This document shows, one piece after another, positions 1 to 50,077 of a stretch of 64,000 nucleotides of DNA. Position 1 is the first letter of the stretch. Every line of letters begins with the position of its first letter. The position numbers and the translations under genes are program-made. The stretch is taken from the NCBI GenBank assembly GCA_030432695.1, contig JAUILN010000001.1, positions 186,001-250,000 of the forward strand, read 5' to 3'. The DNA is from a bacterium (GTDB lineage Bacteria; Planctomycetota; UBA1135; UBA2386). The notes under the pieces are model-generated. The model saw only the letters and a list, made by a program, of their open reading frames with translations, made no database searches and was not told the DNA's origin.

Positions 1-1281
1 CTGCTGACCGCGGCCATGGTCGTGCCCGCTGTCGTCCTGCTCGCTGCCCGCACTCCGGACCCGGATCGGAAGTGGTTCAAGGGCAACCTCCACACCCACA
101 CCCTGTGGAGCGACGGCAACGACTTCCCCGAGATGGTCGTCGATTGGTACCGCAGCCGCGGCGACTACGACTTCCTGGCGCTCAGCGACCACAACACGCT
201 GCAGCAGGGGGAGCGATGGATGGACAACGACCTGGTGATCCGCCGCGGCGGGCGCACCGCGTTGGCCGAGTACCGCGCGCGCTGCGGCGACGCGGTCGAG
301 ACCCGCGAGGGCGAGGATGGCAAGCTCGAGGTTCGGTTGCGCACCCTCGAGGAGTTCCGTGGTGCCTTCGAGGCGCCCGGCGAGTTCCTGCTGATCCAGT
401 CGGAGGAACTCACCGCCAGCCACGACGGCGCGCCGATCCACATCAACGCCACCAACCTTGGCGAGGTGCTGCAGCCGGCGAAGGGTACGAGCGTCGCCGA
501 GGTGCTGCGCAAGAACCTCCAGGCGATCCTCGAGCAGGAGGCGCGGCTGGGGCGGCCGATCCTGGCGCATCTCAACCATCCGAACTTCGGCTGGGCGTTC
601 GCCGCCGAGGAGATGGCCGAGGTGCTGGAGGAGCGCTTCTTCGAGGTCTGGAACGGCCACCCGTCGATCCATCACCTGGGTGACGAGCAGCGCGCTTCGG
701 TCGAGAAGATCTGGGACGTGGTCAACGCGCTCCGCATCCAGCAGATGGGCCAGCCGCCGTTGTTCGGGGTGGGCACCGACGACAGCCACAACTACCACAA
801 CGAGTCGGCGTCGATCCCAGGGCGCGGTTGGGTGATGGTGCGCGCCGCCGAGCTGACTCCGAAGGCGCTGATCGAGGCGATGCGGGCCGGCGACTTCTAT
901 GCGAGTTCGGGCGTGGAGCTGGCCGACGTGCGGTTCGAGGACGGGATCCTCGAGGTCGGTGTCGCGGCGCGCGCTGGCGAGACCTACCGCGTCGAGTTCG
1001 TCGGTACCAGGAAGGGCGTGGAACTCGCGGGCGAGGCGCGGACCGACGGCGAGGGCAAGGCCCTCCGCACCACGCGGCGCTACCCGGATGCGGTGGGCGA
1101 GATCCTGTCCAGCCACGAGGTCGCGGGGCAGGGCACGATCCGGGTCGGCTACCGCCTCGGCGACGACGAGCTGTACGTGCGCTGCGTGGTCACGTCGTCG
1201 GCGGCGCCGGAGCGTCCGGTGTGGGAGGGTCAGAAGCAGCAGGCCTGGACCCAGCCGATGGGCTGGCGGCGCTGGCTCTGA
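1..1281 (+). CDS. Secreted PHP-domain phosphoesterase (5' end outside window)
   Basis: The frame is open to the left edge, so the start may lie upstream; the first ATG inside the window is at 16. A hydrophobic stretch (VVPAVVLLAA) directly after it looks like the end of a signal peptide, so export is likely. The PHP metal-binding signature is clear: GNLHTHTLWSDG followed by FLALSDHNTL, and later a GTDDSHNYH motif, which are the His/Asp ligands of the polymerase-and-histidinol-phosphatase fold. Family members hydrolyse phosphoesters with two or three bound metals; the substrate here cannot be told. The C-terminal ~120 residues look like a beta-rich accessory region. A secreted glycosidase-like gene follows 73 bp downstream on the same strand. 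Confidence 0.85.
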   Translation: MLTAAMVVPAVVLLAARTPDPDRKWFKGNLHTHTLWSDGNDFPEMVVDWYRSRGDYDFLALSDHNTLQQGERWMDNDLVIRRGGRTALAEYRARCGDAVETREGEDGKLEVRLRTLEEFRGAFEAPGEFLLIQSEELTASHDGAPIHINATNLGEVLQPAKGTSVAEVLRKNLQAILEQEARLGRPILAHLNHPNFGWAFAAEEMAEVLEERFFEVWNGHPSIHHLGDEQRASVEKIWDVVNALRIQQMGQPPLFGVGTDDSHNYHNESASIPGRGWVMVRAAELTPKALIEAMRAGDFYASSGVELADVRFEDGILEVGVAARAGETYRVEFVGTRKGVELAGEARTDGEGKALRTTRRYPDAVGEILSSHEVAGQGTIRVGYRLGDDELYVRCVVTSSAAPERPVWEGQKQQAWTQPMGWRRWL

Positions 1282-8121: not shown

Positions 8122-9242
8122 CACGTGCGCGACCTCCGCAGGCCTGCGAGCAGGATCCACAGGAAGATCGGCCCGCCGATCAGCGACATCAGCACGCCGG
8201 GATGCAGGGGTCGGTCGCCGGTCACCAGCACCTGGGCGAGATCACAGGCGAGCAGGAACACCGCGCCGGCCAGCACCGACAGCGGCAGCACCGCGCGGTG
8301 GCCGCTGCCGACCAGGGCGCGGACCATGTGCGGGATCACCAGGCCGACGAAGCCGATCTGGCCGGCCGAGGCGACGGCGCTCGCGGTGGCGACCGCGGCG
8401 GCGAACAACACCAGGATGCGGGTGCGGTGGGTGGCGACGCCGAGGGCGCGGGCGTCATCCTCACCGCTGGCCAGCAGATCGAGTTCGGTGGCGACCAGTG
8501 GGATCACCGGGACGGTCAGCAGGAGACCCAATCCAACCAGGCCGGCGTGCCAGGCCTGCCGCGAGTAGAGGGTGCCGAAGGTCCACGACTGCAGGGCGGA
8601 CATCGCGGCGTTGTCGCCGAGGACGAGGTCCTGCAGCGCGGACAGCAGGCCCGCGATCAGCGTGTTGATCGCGACGCCGACCAGCAGCAGCGTCGCCACG
8701 GAAGGGCGTGGCCCGCGCAGGCCGAGCAGCACCACGACGCCGGACACGCCGAGCGCGCCGGCCAGCGCAGCCAGGGTGACGAGCCAGGGTCCGGAATCCC
8801 CGAGACCCCACAGTGCCCAGTGCGCGTGGCCGCTCAGGGCCAGCATCGCGACGAACGCGCCGAGGTTGGCGCCGGCGGTGACGCCGATCAGGGACGGGGA
8901 GGCCAGCCCGTTGCGGAACAGGCCCTGCAGCAGCGCTCCGGCGAGTGCCAGGAGTGCGCCGACGCCCGCGGCGGTGAGCGTGCGCCACAGACGCATCTCC
9001 AGGGCGTCCTGACTGTGGTCCTGGGGTGCGCCAGGCTCGATGGGGACATCTGCGCCCAACGGATCTGCCAGCCCCAGCATCGCGCCCAGACCGCGGAGCA
9101 CCTCTCCGAGATCGAAGCTGCCCCAGAGGTCCGAGCTGTGAGCCAACTGCAGCAGGAACAACGCGACCAACCCGGCAGCGAGCAACCCCGCCGCGAAGCG
9201 CGGCGGCAGTCGAGGGTGGCTGGCTCCGAGTCCGGTGGTCAT
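8118..9242 (-). CDS. BtuC/FecCD-type ABC transporter permease
   Basis: A 374-aa polytopic membrane protein of the FecCD family, the transmembrane channel of importers for cobalamin, haem or ferric siderophores. Typical family segments are visible: RLWRTLTAAGVGALLALAGA near residue 105, then LFRNGLASPSLIGVTAGANLGA, and late in the protein GQIGFVGLVIPHMVR, the region that contacts the ATPase. Roughly ten hydrophobic segments alternate with short loops. The ATG at 9242 gives a short cytosolic head before the first helix; the open frame upstream has no hydrophobic or family-like sequence. It lies 77 bp after the binding-protein gene and overlaps the ATPase start by 4 nt, forming a btuF-C-D order. 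Substrate not determined. Confidence 0.9.
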   Translation of the reverse strand: MTTGLGASHPRLPPRFAAGLLAAGLVALFLLQLAHSSDLWGSFDLGEVLRGLGAMLGLADPLGADVPIEPGAPQDHSQDALEMRLWRTLTAAGVGALLALAGALLQGLFRNGLASPSLIGVTAGANLGAFVAMLALSGHAHWALWGLGDSGPWLVTLAALAGALGVSGVVVLLGLRGPRPSVATLLLVGVAINTLIAGLLSALQDLVLGDNAAMSALQSWTFGTLYSRQAWHAGLVGLGLLLTVPVIPLVATELDLLASGEDDARALGVATHRTRILVLFAAAVATASAVASAGQIGFVGLVIPHMVRALVGSGHRAVLPLSVLAGAVFLLACDLAQVLVTGDRPLHPGVLMSLIGGPIFLWILLAGLRRSRTW

Positions 9243-9319
9243 CGAGAGGGGGGCGGTCGCGGGCCGATCATCTTGCCGCGGACCCGCAGTCGAAGCCCGA
9301 GCCGGGTCGACCCCGAGTC

Positions 9320-10309
9320 TCAATCGAGTCGGACGGCGAGCTGCTCGGCGGCGGTCACGATCTCGTGCGAGGTCGTCGAGAACAGCCACGGGTGGATCGC
9401 GACGATCCGGTCGTTCCGCCGGGCGCGCAGGCGGGCGAGGCGTGGGTCGCGCTGGACGGAACTCTGCGAAAGGCCGTCCTCCTCGCCGAAGGCCGCGGGA
9501 ACCAGCAGCCACTCCGGATCGAGCGCCAGCAGGTCTTCGAGCGGCAGGCGGCGGGCTCCTTCGCGGCCGACCGCCGCGACTGCGTTCTCGAAGCCGGCGA
9601 GCTCGATCGCCGCGTGGATCAGGGTCCCCGAGCCCATGGTCCAGCCCTCCTCGCCGAGTCGGGAGTAGGCGACGAGCGAAGGCCGGTGTTCGCGGGACGC
9701 GGCTCGGGTCCGCAGCGCGGCGATCCGCGCATCGAGGTCCTGCCGGAGTTCTGCGGCACGCTCCTCAGTGTCGAACAGACGGCCGAGCAGCGTCAGCCGT
9801 GGGCCGAGTTCGTCGATCGTCGTGGGGTCGGCGAGTTTGACCACCTGGATCCCGAGACCGCGCAGCACGTGCACGGTCTCGAGCTGGCTGAACGGGCTGC
9901 ACAGCACCAGGTCCGGCGAGTAGGCGAGGATGGTCTCGGCGTCGAAGTGGCGGAACGTGGGCCGGCCGGCCCAGATCTCGGGATGCGCCGCCAGCGACGA
10001 CCAGGTCCGCGCCTGGTCGCAGAGCGCGACGATGCGGTCGGTGGCGAGCAGCTCGAGGGAGGCGTCGACCAGTGCTGTGTTGGCGACCACCACCCGCCGC
10101 GGACGGTCGGCGAGCTCGACCTCGCTGCCGTCGGGCAGGGCCACCGTCCGCGGAAAGCCGGCCGCGGGTGGGGCAGCACCCGGTCGGGGCGTGGGCGGCG
10201 AGCGGTCCCGGCAGCCAGCCAGTCCTGCGCACAGCGCGAGCAGGACCGTGCAGACCCAGCGCGCTGCCGCGGGGCGGATGCTGCGGGATTCGGGCTGGAG
10301 GCTGATCAT
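9320..10309 (-). CDS. BtuF/FecB-type periplasmic substrate-binding lipoprotein
   Basis: A 329-aa lipoprotein: basic head, hydrophobic core and lipobox LAGC with the acylated Cys at 33. The mature part matches the class III (helical-backbone) binding proteins: RPRRVVVANTALVDASLELLATDRIVAL, then DAETILAYSPDLVLCSPF, ending in the C-terminal lobe with LEDLLALDPEWLLVPAAF. It should deliver a metal chelate (cobalamin, haem or siderophore) to the permease encoded next. First gene of the btuF-C-D-like operon. No cobalamin riboswitch is recognisable upstream, where the 93-bp gap to rpsN mainly holds a terminator-like hairpin. Confidence 0.88.
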   Translation of the reverse strand: MISLQPESRSIRPAAARWVCTVLLALCAGLAGCRDRSPPTPRPGAAPPAAGFPRTVALPDGSEVELADRPRRVVVANTALVDASLELLATDRIVALCDQARTWSSLAAHPEIWAGRPTFRHFDAETILAYSPDLVLCSPFSQLETVHVLRGLGIQVVKLADPTTIDELGPRLTLLGRLFDTEERAAELRQDLDARIAALRTRAASREHRPSLVAYSRLGEEGWTMGSGTLIHAAIELAGFENAVAAVGREGARRLPLEDLLALDPEWLLVPAAFGEEDGLSQSSVQRDPRLARLRARRNDRIVAIHPWLFSTTSHEIVTAAEQLAVRLD

Positions 10310-43949: not shown

Positions 43950-45203
43950 CTACTCCGGCAACCGATACCGGAAGCTGCCGCGCTTGCCGTTCCGCAGGTA
44001 CACCACCTCCACCTCGTCTCCCGCCCGCTTCGTCAACCGCACCCAGGTGTGGAACTCCGCCGGCGAGGTGAAGTCGTCGCGGCCGTCGAAGCTGAGGATC
44101 ACGTCGCCCTGGCGCAGGCCGGCGCGCTGGACTGCGCGGCCGCGGTGGGCCTTCTCGCCCCAGGTGACGAGGTACTGGACGCGGAACGCGTGAGTGTCCT
44201 CGGGCAGGCCGAGTTTGCGGAGATCCGCCGGCGGGAGGAACGGGCCGCCGAAGCCGGGCGCGGGCGACAGGCCCCACTTGTAGGGACGCCAGGTGTACTC
44301 CGCGACGGTGCCGCGCTTCCAGCCGTCCGGCAGCTCGAGGGTGTCCTCGATCCGCTCGTCACCGCGCTGCCATGCCAGCTCCAGCTCGTGGGCATCGGGC
44401 GGCGCCTCGTGCAGCGCGAACGACAGGTCGGCAATCGTGAGCACGCGCGGCTGCACGCCGACGCGCAGCAGGCGATCGCCAGCGCGCAGCCCTGCGGCGG
44501 ATGCCAGGGAGTCCGGAACGACCGACGCGATCACCGCCTGGTCGTGGTGATCGAGCGCGACGCCGATCCGCGCCGGCGGCGGATACACCCACTTGGTGTC
44601 CTCGGTGACGGTGCCGGCTTCGACCGCCACGCGGTGCAGGGTCTCGTGGACCGTGTGGCAGTGCACGCAGCTCGCGCGGAGCTTCGGGTCGCGCTCGCGT
44701 TTCTTCGCCAGCGGCGGCAGGTCGATCACCTGGCGCGGCTGGTGTTCGGGATCGAGGTCGCCGGCTTCGTGCGCGGCGAACTCGTCGAGCGTCGTGCGCA
44801 GCAGCGCGGTCAGACCCCCGAGGTCGTTCCAGTCGGTCGGCTCGTGGACATCACGGCCGCCGTAGCGGTGGAACACCGTGCCGTCGCCGTGCATCAACAG
44901 CGCGGCGAAGGTCAGGTCGTAGTCGAAGCGGTAGACGTCGAGATCGACCCGACTCATGTCGAGGACCTTGACCGAGACGTAGCTCTCGGCGACCTCGATC
45001 AGCTCGCTAGGGGGCTCTGCGACCAACTGGCCGTAGAGACTCGCGCAGTCCTTTCAAGGCTCGCAGCGGAACACCGCGAGCAGCGGCTTGCCGTCGCGGA
45101 GTGCCTCGGCACGGGCGGCGTCGAGGTCGGTGCGCCAGTCGATCGAGGTGGGGGCCTGGCCGGGCAGCGACAGGGTGGCGGTGAGAACGGCCAGCAGGCG
45201 CAT
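43950..45203 (-). CDS. Probable selenoprotein: secreted thioredoxin-like / cytochrome c / PDZ protein with in-frame TGA (Sec50)
   Basis: Reading TGA at 45056-45054 as selenocysteine gives 417 residues. Residues 1-17 are a short signal peptide. Residues ~20-110 look like a thioredoxin-fold domain (IDWRTDLDAARAEALRDGKPLLAVF) whose redox motif is C47-E-P-U50-K-D-C53, followed by YVSVKVLDMS and FAALLMHGDG in the same frame. CVHCH (179-183) is a haem c motif. PDZ-like segments are at ~215-255 (GVALDHHDQAVIASVVPDSLASAAGL in parts) and ~355-400 (AGLRQGDVILSFDG). Downstream of TGA only a TTG could restart translation, in mid-domain. A SECIS-like hairpin follows, and the gene ends in TAG. Alternative: Cys-to-stop pseudogene. 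Start 45224 is also possible. Likely role: extracytoplasmic redox reactions. Confidence 0.72.
45015..45038 (-). promoter_or_regulatory. Putative bacterial SECIS element
   Basis: RNA hairpin within the coding sequence, starting 15 nt after the in-frame UGA: CUCU, then A, CGGCC, loop AGUU, GGUCG, C, AGAG. It has nine base pairs (one G-U) and one A-C mismatch. The apical loop starts 26 nt from the codon and has G as its second base. Both features fit the bacterial SECIS consensus (loop at about 16-37 nt, G among the first two loop bases). Confidence 0.65.
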
Positions 45204-45395: not shown

Positions 45396-48041
45396 ATGCC
45401 TCGATCTGCCACGTGCCGCTCCTGGATCCTCGCGCTGGTCCCTTCGTTCCTCGTGCTGGCGGGTGCCGGCTGTTCGGGTGGCGGATCCACTGGCAACGAT
45501 TCCCGATTGCCTGCTCCGGACCGGACCGTGCACCGCCTGTCGCGGCTGGAGGGCGGAGTTCCTCCGGCGCCCGGAGAGACCTTCGACGCCGTCTATCTCG
45601 ACAGCGGGATCGGCGTCGCGGTCTGGGAGGAGGTCGTCGACGGGGTCGGGCAGATCCGCTACGCCGTCGACCTGGGAGGAGTGCGCGGCTTCGGCGAGGT
45701 CATGGATCTGGCGTCCGGGCGGATCCTGGATCTGGTCGGGTTCGGCTTCCTCGCGGACTGCGTCTACGCGACCGAGGATCCGAGCAGCGGCCGGGTGCTC
45801 ATCCAGCTGGCGACGTTCAACGGTGGGGCGTGGGGTGCGCCGTCGAGCGTCACGACCCTGTCGCGCGATCCAGCGACGGCGCGGCTCGCGCGGGACGCGG
45901 GCGGTGCCTGGGCCGTGGCGTTGGGGCTGTCCGGCAGCGGTGTGGCGGCGCTGACCTACGAACTGGTCGGCGGCGCGTGGATCCGCGTCGACGAGATCGG
46001 TGAGCTCGCCGACCCGCAGACGATCCCCGACGGTGCGGTCGATGCGGCCGACGTCCGGTTGTTCGGGCTGGAGCAGGGCTTCGTGGTCGCGGTGCAGACC
46101 GATCCGACCGCTGGCCGCCTGTGGACCGCGTTCTGGTCGGGTGGCACCGCCGGCGACGTGATCGAACCCTTCTCCGCCGAGACGGTGAGGCTGCTGGGGA
46201 TCGCGACCGAGGGCTCGAGCGCGCAGCTCGTCGCGCGGGCGGACGACCAGTTGATCGCGCGGGCGTTCGAAGGTGGGGCGTGGGGAGGAGCGACCGTGTT
46301 GGTGGTCCTTCTCGACGCCGATTCCATCGTGGACCTGGTCGGCGTCGCGGCGCGCGATGGTCGGCCTGCGCGCTTCGCGTTCACTCTGGGCGACGTCGGG
46401 GTGCAATCGAGACCTGGCCGCATCACGTTGTTCGAGCGCCTGATCGGCACACCCGGTTGGTTCAGCAACCTGGCAGTGGTGCTGAACCCCGGGCCGATCA
46501 CCGAGCTGCAGCTGGTGCCGACGCCGGCGAGCTACGTCCTCGCTTGGAACGAGGGCGAAGTGCGCAAGGTCCAAGCCGTCGGGACGCCGAACGGCACGAC
46601 GCACACCATCCCCGATGCGGTCGGTCGGCTCGAACTGGTCGCCGCCACGCCGTCGAGCCAGGGTGCCGACTACCTGGTCGCCACCGCGGTGCGTTCCGGT
46701 CCGACCGGTCGGGAACGGTCGGTGGTGGTCGGCTACGGGCTGGGAGACGATCTCGATGGTCCCCTCCCGCTGGCGTCCGCCAACCTCGAGCCGCAGCAGG
46801 AGCTGTTGGGGCTGCACCGAAAGGCCGACGGGAGCGTCGTGTTCACCCAGGGGCCAGCCCCCGAGTCCGCGGTGCGCTACGACCAGCTCGCCGAAGCGGG
46901 GGCGGGGACGACGGGGCTCCTGACCCGCTTCGGGGGCGATGTGGTGTTCCCGCCCATGGCGACCCGGGTCGCGTGTGCCGCGGCGCCGGGGAATCGGCTG
47001 CTGGTGATCTGGGACGAGCGGGATGGCGAGCAGCCGTTGGCGTTCGCGGACTGGGTCGGAATCGACTGGAGCCTGCCGGGCGTGCTCCTGCCGGGGCGGC
47101 GGCAGCGCTTCTGGGATCTCCGTTCGATCCAGGGACCGGGGTCCGAGGCACCGCTGGTCTCCGCCCGCGACGACGAGCTGCTGCGTCACGATCCGGCGGG
47201 TGGACCGGACCGGTTCCTGGCGTCGATCGGAACCGCGGGAGACGGGTCCCGCCTCGCGCTCGCCGGCGGGCCGGCCGATCGGTTCGTGATGGCCTACCAC
47301 GACGTCGACCTGCAGGGGCGGAGCGAACTCACGCTGCGCGGCTTCGACGGGGATCGGCTGCGGTTCGAGCAGCACTTCGAGGACGCGGTGGCCGGGTCCG
47401 GGATCGCGGTCGCGGTCGGAGAGCGCGATTTCCACGTGGTCTACCGTCGGCAGGACGCGGTGGTGCATTGGCGAGGCAATCCGGTGGACCCATCGTCCTT
47501 CGATTCGATCGAGCCGCGCGACGAGGAGCAGGTCCTCGGCTACGCGGTTGCGGGGCGCGGTGCCGAGGGATGGGTCCGGGCGATCGCCTGGTCCCACTCG
47601 GTCGACTTCACGTTCGACGACGGTGCGTCGTTCACGGCTGCGTCGACCGTCGGTCCGCGCGGTGCGCCGTCGGTGGCTGCCGTGGGCGAGGGTGCGCTGG
47701 CGGTCTGGCTGGACGGTGAGGAGCTCGTCGGCTGGTCGAACGCCGGTCCGCGGGTCGGATCCGTGGTGTTGGCGGCGGGTGCGCTCCGGCCTTCGGCGGT
47801 GAGGGTCAGGGCCCGCGAGCTGGACGTCGAGGTCCTGTGGCTCGAGGAGCGCCCGGACGTGAGCGGCTCGCGCCTCGTCCGCCGCCGCTTCGATGCCGGC
47901 GGCTGGGGCTCCGAGGTGGAGATCCTGTTGCGGTCGCGGCCGATCACCGCCTTCGACCTGGGCCGGCTGTCCAACGGCGACCTCGCGGTCGTCTGGATCG
48001 AGGACGGCGCGGTGTGGGGGCAGGTGCTCGCGGTGGACTGA
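45396..48041 (+). CDS. Large lipoprotein, propeller-like repeats (paralogue 1 of 3)
   Basis: 881 aa; lipobox LAGAGC (Cys 26) followed by a Gly/Ser stretch (SGGGSTGN). The long mature part consists of recurrent short strands with patterns such as FVVAVQTDPTAGRLWTAFW and ARFAFTLGDVGVQ spaced by about 50-60 residues, which suggests beta-propeller blades. Two relatives, at 50800 and 53454, share order and end: a C-terminal SRLVRRRFDAGGWGSEVEIL, then LSNGDLAVVWIEDGAVWGQVL. No known domain is recognised and no catalytic site is seen. It probably sits on a membrane facing outside. The upstream region has TATCTC at about 45364 and the GTGACTTCC repeats. Confidence 0.78.
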   Translation: MPRSATCRSWILALVPSFLVLAGAGCSGGGSTGNDSRLPAPDRTVHRLSRLEGGVPPAPGETFDAVYLDSGIGVAVWEEVVDGVGQIRYAVDLGGVRGFGEVMDLASGRILDLVGFGFLADCVYATEDPSSGRVLIQLATFNGGAWGAPSSVTTLSRDPATARLARDAGGAWAVALGLSGSGVAALTYELVGGAWIRVDEIGELADPQTIPDGAVDAADVRLFGLEQGFVVAVQTDPTAGRLWTAFWSGGTAGDVIEPFSAETVRLLGIATEGSSAQLVARADDQLIARAFEGGAWGGATVLVVLLDADSIVDLVGVAARDGRPARFAFTLGDVGVQSRPGRITLFERLIGTPGWFSNLAVVLNPGPITELQLVPTPASYVLAWNEGEVRKVQAVGTPNGTTHTIPDAVGRLELVAATPSSQGADYLVATAVRSGPTGRERSVVVGYGLGDDLDGPLPLASANLEPQQELLGLHRKADGSVVFTQGPAPESAVRYDQLAEAGAGTTGLLTRFGGDVVFPPMATRVACAAAPGNRLLVIWDERDGEQPLAFADWVGIDWSLPGVLLPGRRQRFWDLRSIQGPGSEAPLVSARDDELLRHDPAGGPDRFLASIGTAGDGSRLALAGGPADRFVMAYHDVDLQGRSELTLRGFDGDRLRFEQHFEDAVAGSGIAVAVGERDFHVVYRRQDAVVHWRGNPVDPSSFDSIEPRDEEQVLGYAVAGRGAEGWVRAIAWSHSVDFTFDDGASFTAASTVGPRGAPSVAAVGEGALAVWLDGEELVGWSNAGPRVGSVVLAAGALRPSAVRVRARELDVEVLWLEERPDVSGSRLVRRRFDAGGWGSEVEILLRSRPITAFDLGRLSNGDLAVVWIEDGAVWGQVLAVD

Positions 48042-48067
48042 GTCGCGCGGCGCGCCGTCCCGAAGCG

Positions 48068-50077
48068 CTACTTCGCCAACGGGTCGTGCAGGTTGGTCTC
48101 GCCGCTCTTGTGGTACACGTCGACCGCGGTCGCCGCGGCCTTGCCGTAGTAGCAGCTCGCACCCCGTGACGCCGCGAGCTTCTCCAGCCGAGTGGCCAGC
48201 GGCGCGAGCTTGCGCAGGTAGAGCGCCTGCGCTTTCTCCTCGGCCTTCTGGCGGGCGCGCGGCGCGGTGATCTCGGCGTTCTTGGCGACCAGCTCGCGCT
48301 GGCGCTCGTCGAGGTCGGCGAGGTCGGCGAACACCTCGGTGTAGGTCTTGCCGGCGTAGAAGGCGTTCTTCACCTCCTGGTCGCGGAACTCGTCGTTCCA
48401 GCGCGACTCGGCCTCGTCGAAGGCGGGGATGCGGTCGAAGCGGTCCTTCGCCTCCGCGACGGCGGTGAACTTGCCATGGACGTCTCCGAGTGCGCCGCGG
48501 GCGTCGATCGCGGCGATCGTCGCGCGGACCTCTTGGTCGATGCCGGCCAGCTCGCCGGTCGCCTCGCGCGCGGCGAAGGTGCCGGAGTGCTCGGCCTGGA
48601 ACTTGTCGAGCTGGCCGTGCCAGGCGGCGAGCTTCAGGCGGTCCTTCCGTGCCAGCAGCGACTGCCACGCGGCGCCGGCGGCCAGTTCCTCGGCGGCGGC
48701 GTCGGTGCCGAGCAGCGCGGTGTGCTTGGCGTGCGCGGCATCGAATGCCGCGACGCCACCCAGCTTGCGCTGTTGCTCATCCAACGCGGACTGCAGCGCG
48801 AACAGGTCGCCGCGGTCGGCGAGTCCCTGCAGTCCGGCGAGCGCTGCGCCGACGATCTCGTCGAGATGGCCGGCGAGCTGTCGTGCATGGGCGATCTGCG
48901 CCGCATCCTCCTGGCTGCCGGCGGCGAGGTAGGGCTCGAGGCCGGCCGCGGCCTGGGCGAAGCGCTCGTCGACCAGAGCCGCGAACACGCTCCGGAGGCC
49001 TCCGTCGAGCTCGTCCTCGTCGACGAGGCGGCGGACTGCGCCGCCGGGGCGCGCGTTCTCGAGCAGGGCGGCCATCGCCCAGCCGAGCCCGTTGCCGACC
49101 TCCATGTAGGTCTCCGGATTGCCGCCGTAGTGCGCGCCGCCGCCGCGCCAGAACGGCCGCGCGTCGACGGTTGCGACGTTGCCGGCGAACTCGGGATACT
49201 TCCGCGGGTCGCTGACCGCCAGCTGGGCCTCGGCGACGGTCAACGCGTGCGCGCTCATGCCGCGGCCGCCGAAGCCGATCGTCGCGCAGACGAACGGCGC
49301 GTCGGGGGCGTCGAAGTCGTGGCGCAGCGACTTGATCAGCTGCACGAAGTTCTGCTCGTAGCGCACCGCCCACTCGGCCTTCTGGTCCTTGTGGCCCTGC
49401 CACCAGACGAAGCCGGCGATCTCGTAGCGCCGCGCGCCGGGGTAGTACTTCGGCAGGTGGGCGAGCACTTCGCGGACGCAGTCGGTGTCGTCGTCGTACT
49501 GCTTGCCGGCGTACCAGCTGCCCTTGGGCCGTTTCGACGGATCGCGCGAGCCCTGGTAGCCGGGGATGGTCTGGCCCTCGTACTCGTAGTCCTCGGTGCC
49601 CGGCGGCAGCAGGTCCCAGCCGAGCGCGCGGTTGCCGATGCAGGCCTTGAGCACCAGCACCGGCGCGTCGAGGACCTCTCCCATGATGTGGCCGAAGCCG
49701 ATCTCCGGTCCGAAGTTCTTGCCGCTGACGGTCAGCCAGTCGTTGACGTGTTCGGTCATGCGGCCGTTGGCGTGCATCACCCGCACGTTGCGGACGTCGC
49801 GGCGCGTGGTCCAGTTGCCGGCGTCGTCCATCAGGTGGGTGAAGCGCTGCTTGTCGCGGACCACGTTGGCGAGCGAGGCGACGTCGCCGAAGCCCAACAT
49901 GTTGGACTGGCCCATCAGGATGAAGACCTGCACCGGCTTCGACATGTCGGCCGGCTCCGCGTCGGGAGGCGGCAGGTTCTCCGGGCCGACGCCGGTCGGG
50001 CTCTGAGCCGGCAGGGTCAGCGTATGGGCGGCGAGGAGGAGGACGAGAGCGGGGACGACGGCGGAGACGGTTCGCAT
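48068..50077 (-). CDS. Secreted sialate O-acetylesterase-like (SASA domain) protein with helical C-terminal region
   Basis: 669 aa with a signal peptide (cleavage near LPAQS). Residues ~48-330 are an SGNH/SASA esterase: FILMGQSNMLGFG (catalytic Ser in GQSNM, 56-60), PEIGFGHIM, VLVLKACIGNRALGWDLLPP and FVWWQGHKDQ, the block that carries the catalytic Asp/His region (usually WxQGExD; here GHKD, so the Glu is replaced). Family enzymes remove O-acetyl groups from sialic acid or xylan. The C-terminal ~300 residues are Ala/Glu/Lys-rich helices, perhaps a coiled coil, unusual for the family. Located on the minus strand between the lipoprotein paralogues. Confidence 0.82.
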   Translation of the reverse strand: MRTVSAVVPALVLLLAAHTLTLPAQSPTGVGPENLPPPDAEPADMSKPVQVFILMGQSNMLGFGDVASLANVVRDKQRFTHLMDDAGNWTTRRDVRNVRVMHANGRMTEHVNDWLTVSGKNFGPEIGFGHIMGEVLDAPVLVLKACIGNRALGWDLLPPGTEDYEYEGQTIPGYQGSRDPSKRPKGSWYAGKQYDDDTDCVREVLAHLPKYYPGARRYEIAGFVWWQGHKDQKAEWAVRYEQNFVQLIKSLRHDFDAPDAPFVCATIGFGGRGMSAHALTVAEAQLAVSDPRKYPEFAGNVATVDARPFWRGGGAHYGGNPETYMEVGNGLGWAMAALLENARPGGAVRRLVDEDELDGGLRSVFAALVDERFAQAAAGLEPYLAAGSQEDAAQIAHARQLAGHLDEIVGAALAGLQGLADRGDLFALQSALDEQQRKLGGVAAFDAAHAKHTALLGTDAAAEELAAGAAWQSLLARKDRLKLAAWHGQLDKFQAEHSGTFAAREATGELAGIDQEVRATIAAIDARGALGDVHGKFTAVAEAKDRFDRIPAFDEAESRWNDEFRDQEVKNAFYAGKTYTEVFADLADLDERQRELVAKNAEITAPRARQKAEEKAQALYLRKLAPLATRLEKLAASRGASCYYGKAAATAVDVYHKSGETNLHDPLAK

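Follow-up and report, generated by a model that had tools for sequence, protein, structure and literature searches.

We identified in the window, the 64,000-nucleotide stretch of planctomycete DNA analyzed here, a gene with a single in-frame TGA that is very probably decoded as selenocysteine (Sec) by SelB and tRNA-Sec with the help of a downstream hairpin (H2), yielding an exported thioredoxin-fold redox protein of the catalogued NF041199 family. The observed support comprises the conservation of Sec or Cys at the site, the hairpin and the domains of the protein, together with the presence of selA, selB and selD in the genome; actual Sec insertion, export, redox activity, a substrate and possible haem binding are inferred for the window protein. 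Comparison with relatives that carry two Sec codons further revealed a second hairpin (H1), which probably serves the additional UGA.

A sequence-only reading of the window had placed the TGA between a signal peptide plus the start of a thioredoxin-like domain and the remainder of that domain. This arrangement was confirmed, and the frame stays open to a TAG (Table 1). A GAGGA lies just 5' of the first ATG (45224) and favors it as the start; from a second ATG at 45203, the Sec would be residue 50 rather than 57. The protein comprises a signal peptide, a Thioredoxin_7 domain, a CxxCH motif and two PDZ domains, in agreement with the CVHCH motif and PDZ-like segments noted earlier, and its active site reads F-R-C54-E-P-U57-K-D-C60. 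The CxxCH is unchanged across 15 aligned homologues; Pfam matched no cytochrome c domain in the window protein. When gene neighbourhoods at 21 loci were compared with that of the window, no neighbour gene was conserved and only shadow frames of the selenoprotein gene itself turned up. Long lipoprotein-like ORFs at 45396-48149 (+) and from about 50800 (+), which diverge from the selenoprotein gene, resemble tandem paralogues with similar N-termini containing ...CSGG.

Table 1. Features of the selenoprotein gene, in window coordinates.
Feature	Position	Strand	Details
Trx7/PDZ selenoprotein gene, 424 residues	43950..45224	-	ATG 45224-45222, TAG 43952-43950; NF041199 366.7 bits, cut-off 300
UGA read as selenocysteine (predicted), residue 57	45054..45056	-	Column is UGA or Cys in all compared family members
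Cys54 codon, TGC at -3 of the UGA	45063..45065	-	UGA (second Sec) at 77 of 133 compared sites
Bacterial SECIS hairpin H2 (putative)	45015..45038	-	Kept with compensatory changes in Sec homologues, missing in Cys homologues
Thioredoxin_7, residues 29-92	44949..45140	-	Pfam PF13899, 32.3 bits, cut-off 27
CVHCH, residues 186-190, candidate haem c site	44655..44669	-	CxxCH invariant in homologue alignment
First PDZ, residues 231-283	44376..44534	-	Pfam PF17820; fold match to DegQ/RseP PDZ
Second PDZ, residues 365-418	43971..44132	-	Pfam PF13180

Judged by its profile match, the window protein is a full-length member of NF041199, catalogued as 'Trx7/PDZ domain-containing (seleno)protein': residues 29-420 align with positions 2-388 of the 390 in the profile, and nothing in length, domain order or CxxU motif sets it apart. 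All six homologues tested also match the profile, five of them above the cut-off. The active-site signature of the family (CxxU or its Cys version) is present as C54-E-P-U57 in the window protein and as UxxU, CxxU or CxxC in the homologues. A 2026 review lists NF041199 as a CxxU selenoprotein with one Sec and cites for it the 2008 GOS survey (PMC13188914), in which a CxxU selenoprotein is reported as a 'putative secreted serine protease MucD' (PMC2398784). The review's citation suggests that the two are one family. The GOS protein, which has the CxxU in common with ours, was named for PDZ similarity to MucD/DegP, whereas Pfam detected no protease domain in the window protein. Given the membership in NF041199 and the listing in the review, the earlier proposals of a new-type selenoprotein and of an undescribed domain order, which is already that of NF041199, therefore fall. 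The VPGUxxT thioredoxin-like selenoprotein NF041383 bears a weak likeness to the window protein in the N-terminal thioredoxin region around the UGA but differs in its VPGU motif, and the window protein scores only 19.2 bits against a cut-off of 275. Genes for NF041383-like VPGU selenoproteins were also encountered at six loci in relatives of the order, as weak matches to the N-terminal domain.

The read-through protein was searched against genomes of the same order, and a larger set was then drawn from the phylum. The homologues retrieved within the order contain a single in-frame TGA codon or a pair of them; those farther removed contain no such codon. In every family member the aligned site is UGA or Cys (FRCxxUxxC, FRUxxUxxC or RCxPCKQC). 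Close homologues retain the UGA and distant ones have RC-x-P-C-K-Q-C, with Cys at the same column, consistent with the earlier suggestion that Sec occupies the place of a redox Cys. The 133 sites collected from the phylum, a set biased to UGA-bearing genes whose counts do not represent natural frequencies, included 77 UxxU, 42 CxxU and 7 CxxC, the remainder being mainly VPGU-type thioredoxin relatives. The sequence-only reading had described the motif as CxxUxxC, and C54 and C60 do flank U57 in the window protein, but the Cys at +3 is not invariant, being replaced by S, A, G, N or F at 11 of the 133 sites. For this reason, the redox pair conserved in the alignment is [C/U]xxU, with the +3 Cys dispensable in evolution. 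The named records with the family belong to Planctomycetota and include the complete chromosome (CP036434) of Planctomycetes bacterium Poly30.

The hairpin described earlier downstream of the UGA was recovered base for base. Its 5' arm (45038-45029) and 3' arm (45024-45015) form nine pairs with one A.C mismatch around an AGUU loop (45028-45025); 15 nt separate the UGA from the stem and 25 nt separate it from the loop, which starts at the 26th nucleotide after it. The pairing in the window alone gave p = 0.03 against synonymous codon shuffles. Across 28 Sec homologues, the mean was 7.21 of 9 pairs versus 5.68 +/- 0.16 in the shuffles, none of which (0/500) reached as high, and in the Cys homologues, where the hairpin is missing, 480 of 500 synonymous shuffles did. 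With the first base of the UGA numbered 1, the commonest register (22 homologues) is a stem of 22-28:34-40, in which 97% of cells are paired versus 28-45% when the register is slid by one to three bases; compensatory pairs occur at 22:40, 26:36 and 27:35. The register in the window (19-28:33-42) is one nucleotide off that of the relatives and lies beside an insertion of one codon in the 3' arm relative to them; this shift and the A.C mismatch count against the Sec reading. The loop has the consensus CAG[G/U]U (CAG followed by UU or GU), and the Leu codons within it are TTG in 13 of 13 cases in the first 28 Sec homologues and in 44 of 47 in the larger set, compared with a TTG share of 14% among the Leu codons of the genes concerned. 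The geometry agrees with the published bacterial model, which calls for a G within the first two nucleotides of the loop and for a loop 16-37 nt from the UGA (PMC13188914). The comparison supports the view that H2 behaves as a bacterial SECIS and is selected beyond the amino acids it encodes.

The genome (10.03 Mb in 37 contigs, 88% complete) contains selA, selB and selD, with matches of 471.7, 329.9 and 337 bits, all above curated cut-offs. The selA gene adjoins selD, and selB is located elsewhere. The selD gene itself carries an in-frame UGA (about 9240-10300 of locus L022, contig C30) and the protein reads SSAAG-U-AAK, so SelD is also predicted to be a selenoprotein. The search for the Sec machinery suggested earlier was thus answered in part: the three sel genes were present, but tRNA-Sec(UCA) was not found in the 37-contig draft assembly with the Rfam model, an anticodon/T-arm pattern, a conserved 3' pattern allowing 3 mismatches or the whole gene of a relative, nor by ARAGORN near selA/selD and selB. 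All 12 relatives searched have a tRNA-Sec with anticodon UCA (70.8-76.2 bits), and an assembly gap is the likeliest explanation. In three other genomes the family member found is all-Cys and yet tRNA-Sec is present, so these organisms probably make other selenoproteins.

The missing tRNA-Sec gene would also fit two other accounts of the UGA. It could be a genuine stop codon, or one created by a nonsense mutation, followed by a pseudogene remnant, which we regard as highly improbable when dozens of diverged homologues have UGA at the same codon with open frames on either side, the hairpin is selected beyond the amino acids and the genome carries selA, selB and a Sec-containing selD. Alternatively, a tRNA near-cognate to UGA (that for Trp or Cys) could read the codon, or the code could be reassigned, with an amino acid other than Sec inserted. 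That homologues exchange the UGA for Cys, that a SECIS-type hairpin close to the UGA is kept in the UGA members only, that UGA seems to end other genes in the window and that the genome encodes Sec machinery make this account equally hard to credit. Decoding as Sec is the reading that we favor.

In the proposed pathway, SelB carrying tRNA-Sec would decode the UGA as Sec, guided by the hairpin at 45038-45015. The exported thioredoxin-fold product would have Cys54 and Sec57 as a selenenylsulfide-type redox center, and [C/U]xxU within a Thioredoxin_7 domain points to thiol/selenol chemistry of a reductase or peroxidase-like kind. A partner protein or substrate is probably held by the pair of HtrA-like PDZ domains, with the CxxCH as a possible haem site that could relay electrons. 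An AlphaFold model (pLDDT 86.6, pTM 0.84, with lower confidence near the active-site loop) shows the N-terminal domain as a separate unit alongside two PDZ folds. A fold search of the PDB matched only the PDZ regions of DegQ, DegP and RseP with low whole-chain TM-scores, and thus retrieved no solved structure with the same architecture.

The UxxU relatives carry a second hairpin, H1, directly 3' of the second UGA and before H2, about 16 nt from the first UGA. In a scan of every sequence with a sliding 20-nt segment, in which the longest helix was scored against synonymous shuffles, the 77 UxxU members gave two peaks (nt 1-20, z = 12.3; nt 22-41, z = 26.9). The 42 CxxU members, the window gene among them, had one peak (nt 22-41, z = 13.0) and no H1 signal (nt 1-20, z = -0.4). 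An uninterrupted H1 helix of at least 5 pairs is present in 56 of the 77, with 26 different 5' arms (AAGGAC/GUCCUU, GCUGG/CCAGC and GGCGACU/AGUCGUU are examples of paired arms). A protein tree from which the motif residues had been left out requires at least 13 changes of the first-site label (U or C). Independent pairs followed the same direction for H1 in about 8 cases, the opposite in about 0.5 and no difference in about 4.6 (median sign-test p 0.016, range 0.001-0.45); with a quick tree and a 5-pair threshold of our choosing, this test is supportive but short of decisive evidence that the association of H1 with the first UGA recurs in independent lineages.

We interpret these hairpins as tandem SECIS elements in the UxxU relatives, where H1 probably serves the first UGA and H2 the second, and where H1 would come and go together with the first UGA; in this view, the window gene would be a one-Sec member with H2 only. 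When the first UGA is in the A site, both hairpins would lie outside the ribosome with H1 nearest; by the arrival of the second UGA, H1 would be inside the ribosome or unwound and H2 would take over. It is conceivable, though rather unlikely, that H2 alone serves both UGAs and that H1 is otherwise used, slowing the ribosome or preventing H2 from misfolding. Measured from the first UGA, the H2 loop is at 34 nt, a distance that the model still allows (16-37 nt; PMC13188914), and 21 of the 77 UxxU members are without an uninterrupted 5-pair H1 helix, both consistent with a shared SECIS. Against it, H1 accompanies the first UGA and is missing where that UGA is missing, a pattern repeated across the tree, and the distance from the first UGA to the H1 loop is 14-17 nt, 48 of 56 members having a G among the first two loop nucleotides. 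One SECIS per UGA is, hence, the interpretation we prefer. Two Sec residues three apart are also known from the UxxU selenoproteins of the Prx-like, NF041115 metal-binding and FmdB families (PMC13188914), which differ from Trx7/PDZ in fold and family. The review entry for NF041199 (CxxU, one Sec) includes neither the UxxU form nor a second hairpin (PMC13188914). In the part of the literature covered, nothing closer than PMC13188914 and PMC2398784 came up on paired SECIS elements in bacteria or on the family together with Planctomycetes, and the second recoding hairpin of the two-Sec members seems to be new.

The window gene is a well-supported addition to a catalogued selenoprotein family, and one that ordinary gene calling would truncate at the UGA. 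The wider family comparison outweighs it in importance. With 77 two-Sec and 42 one-Sec homologues, the family offers a natural experiment in which an additional recoding hairpin goes with an additional UGA at a distance of nine nucleotides. This comparison makes directly testable what bacterial ribosomes and SelB do with Sec codons so near each other and whether two of them can share a single SECIS.
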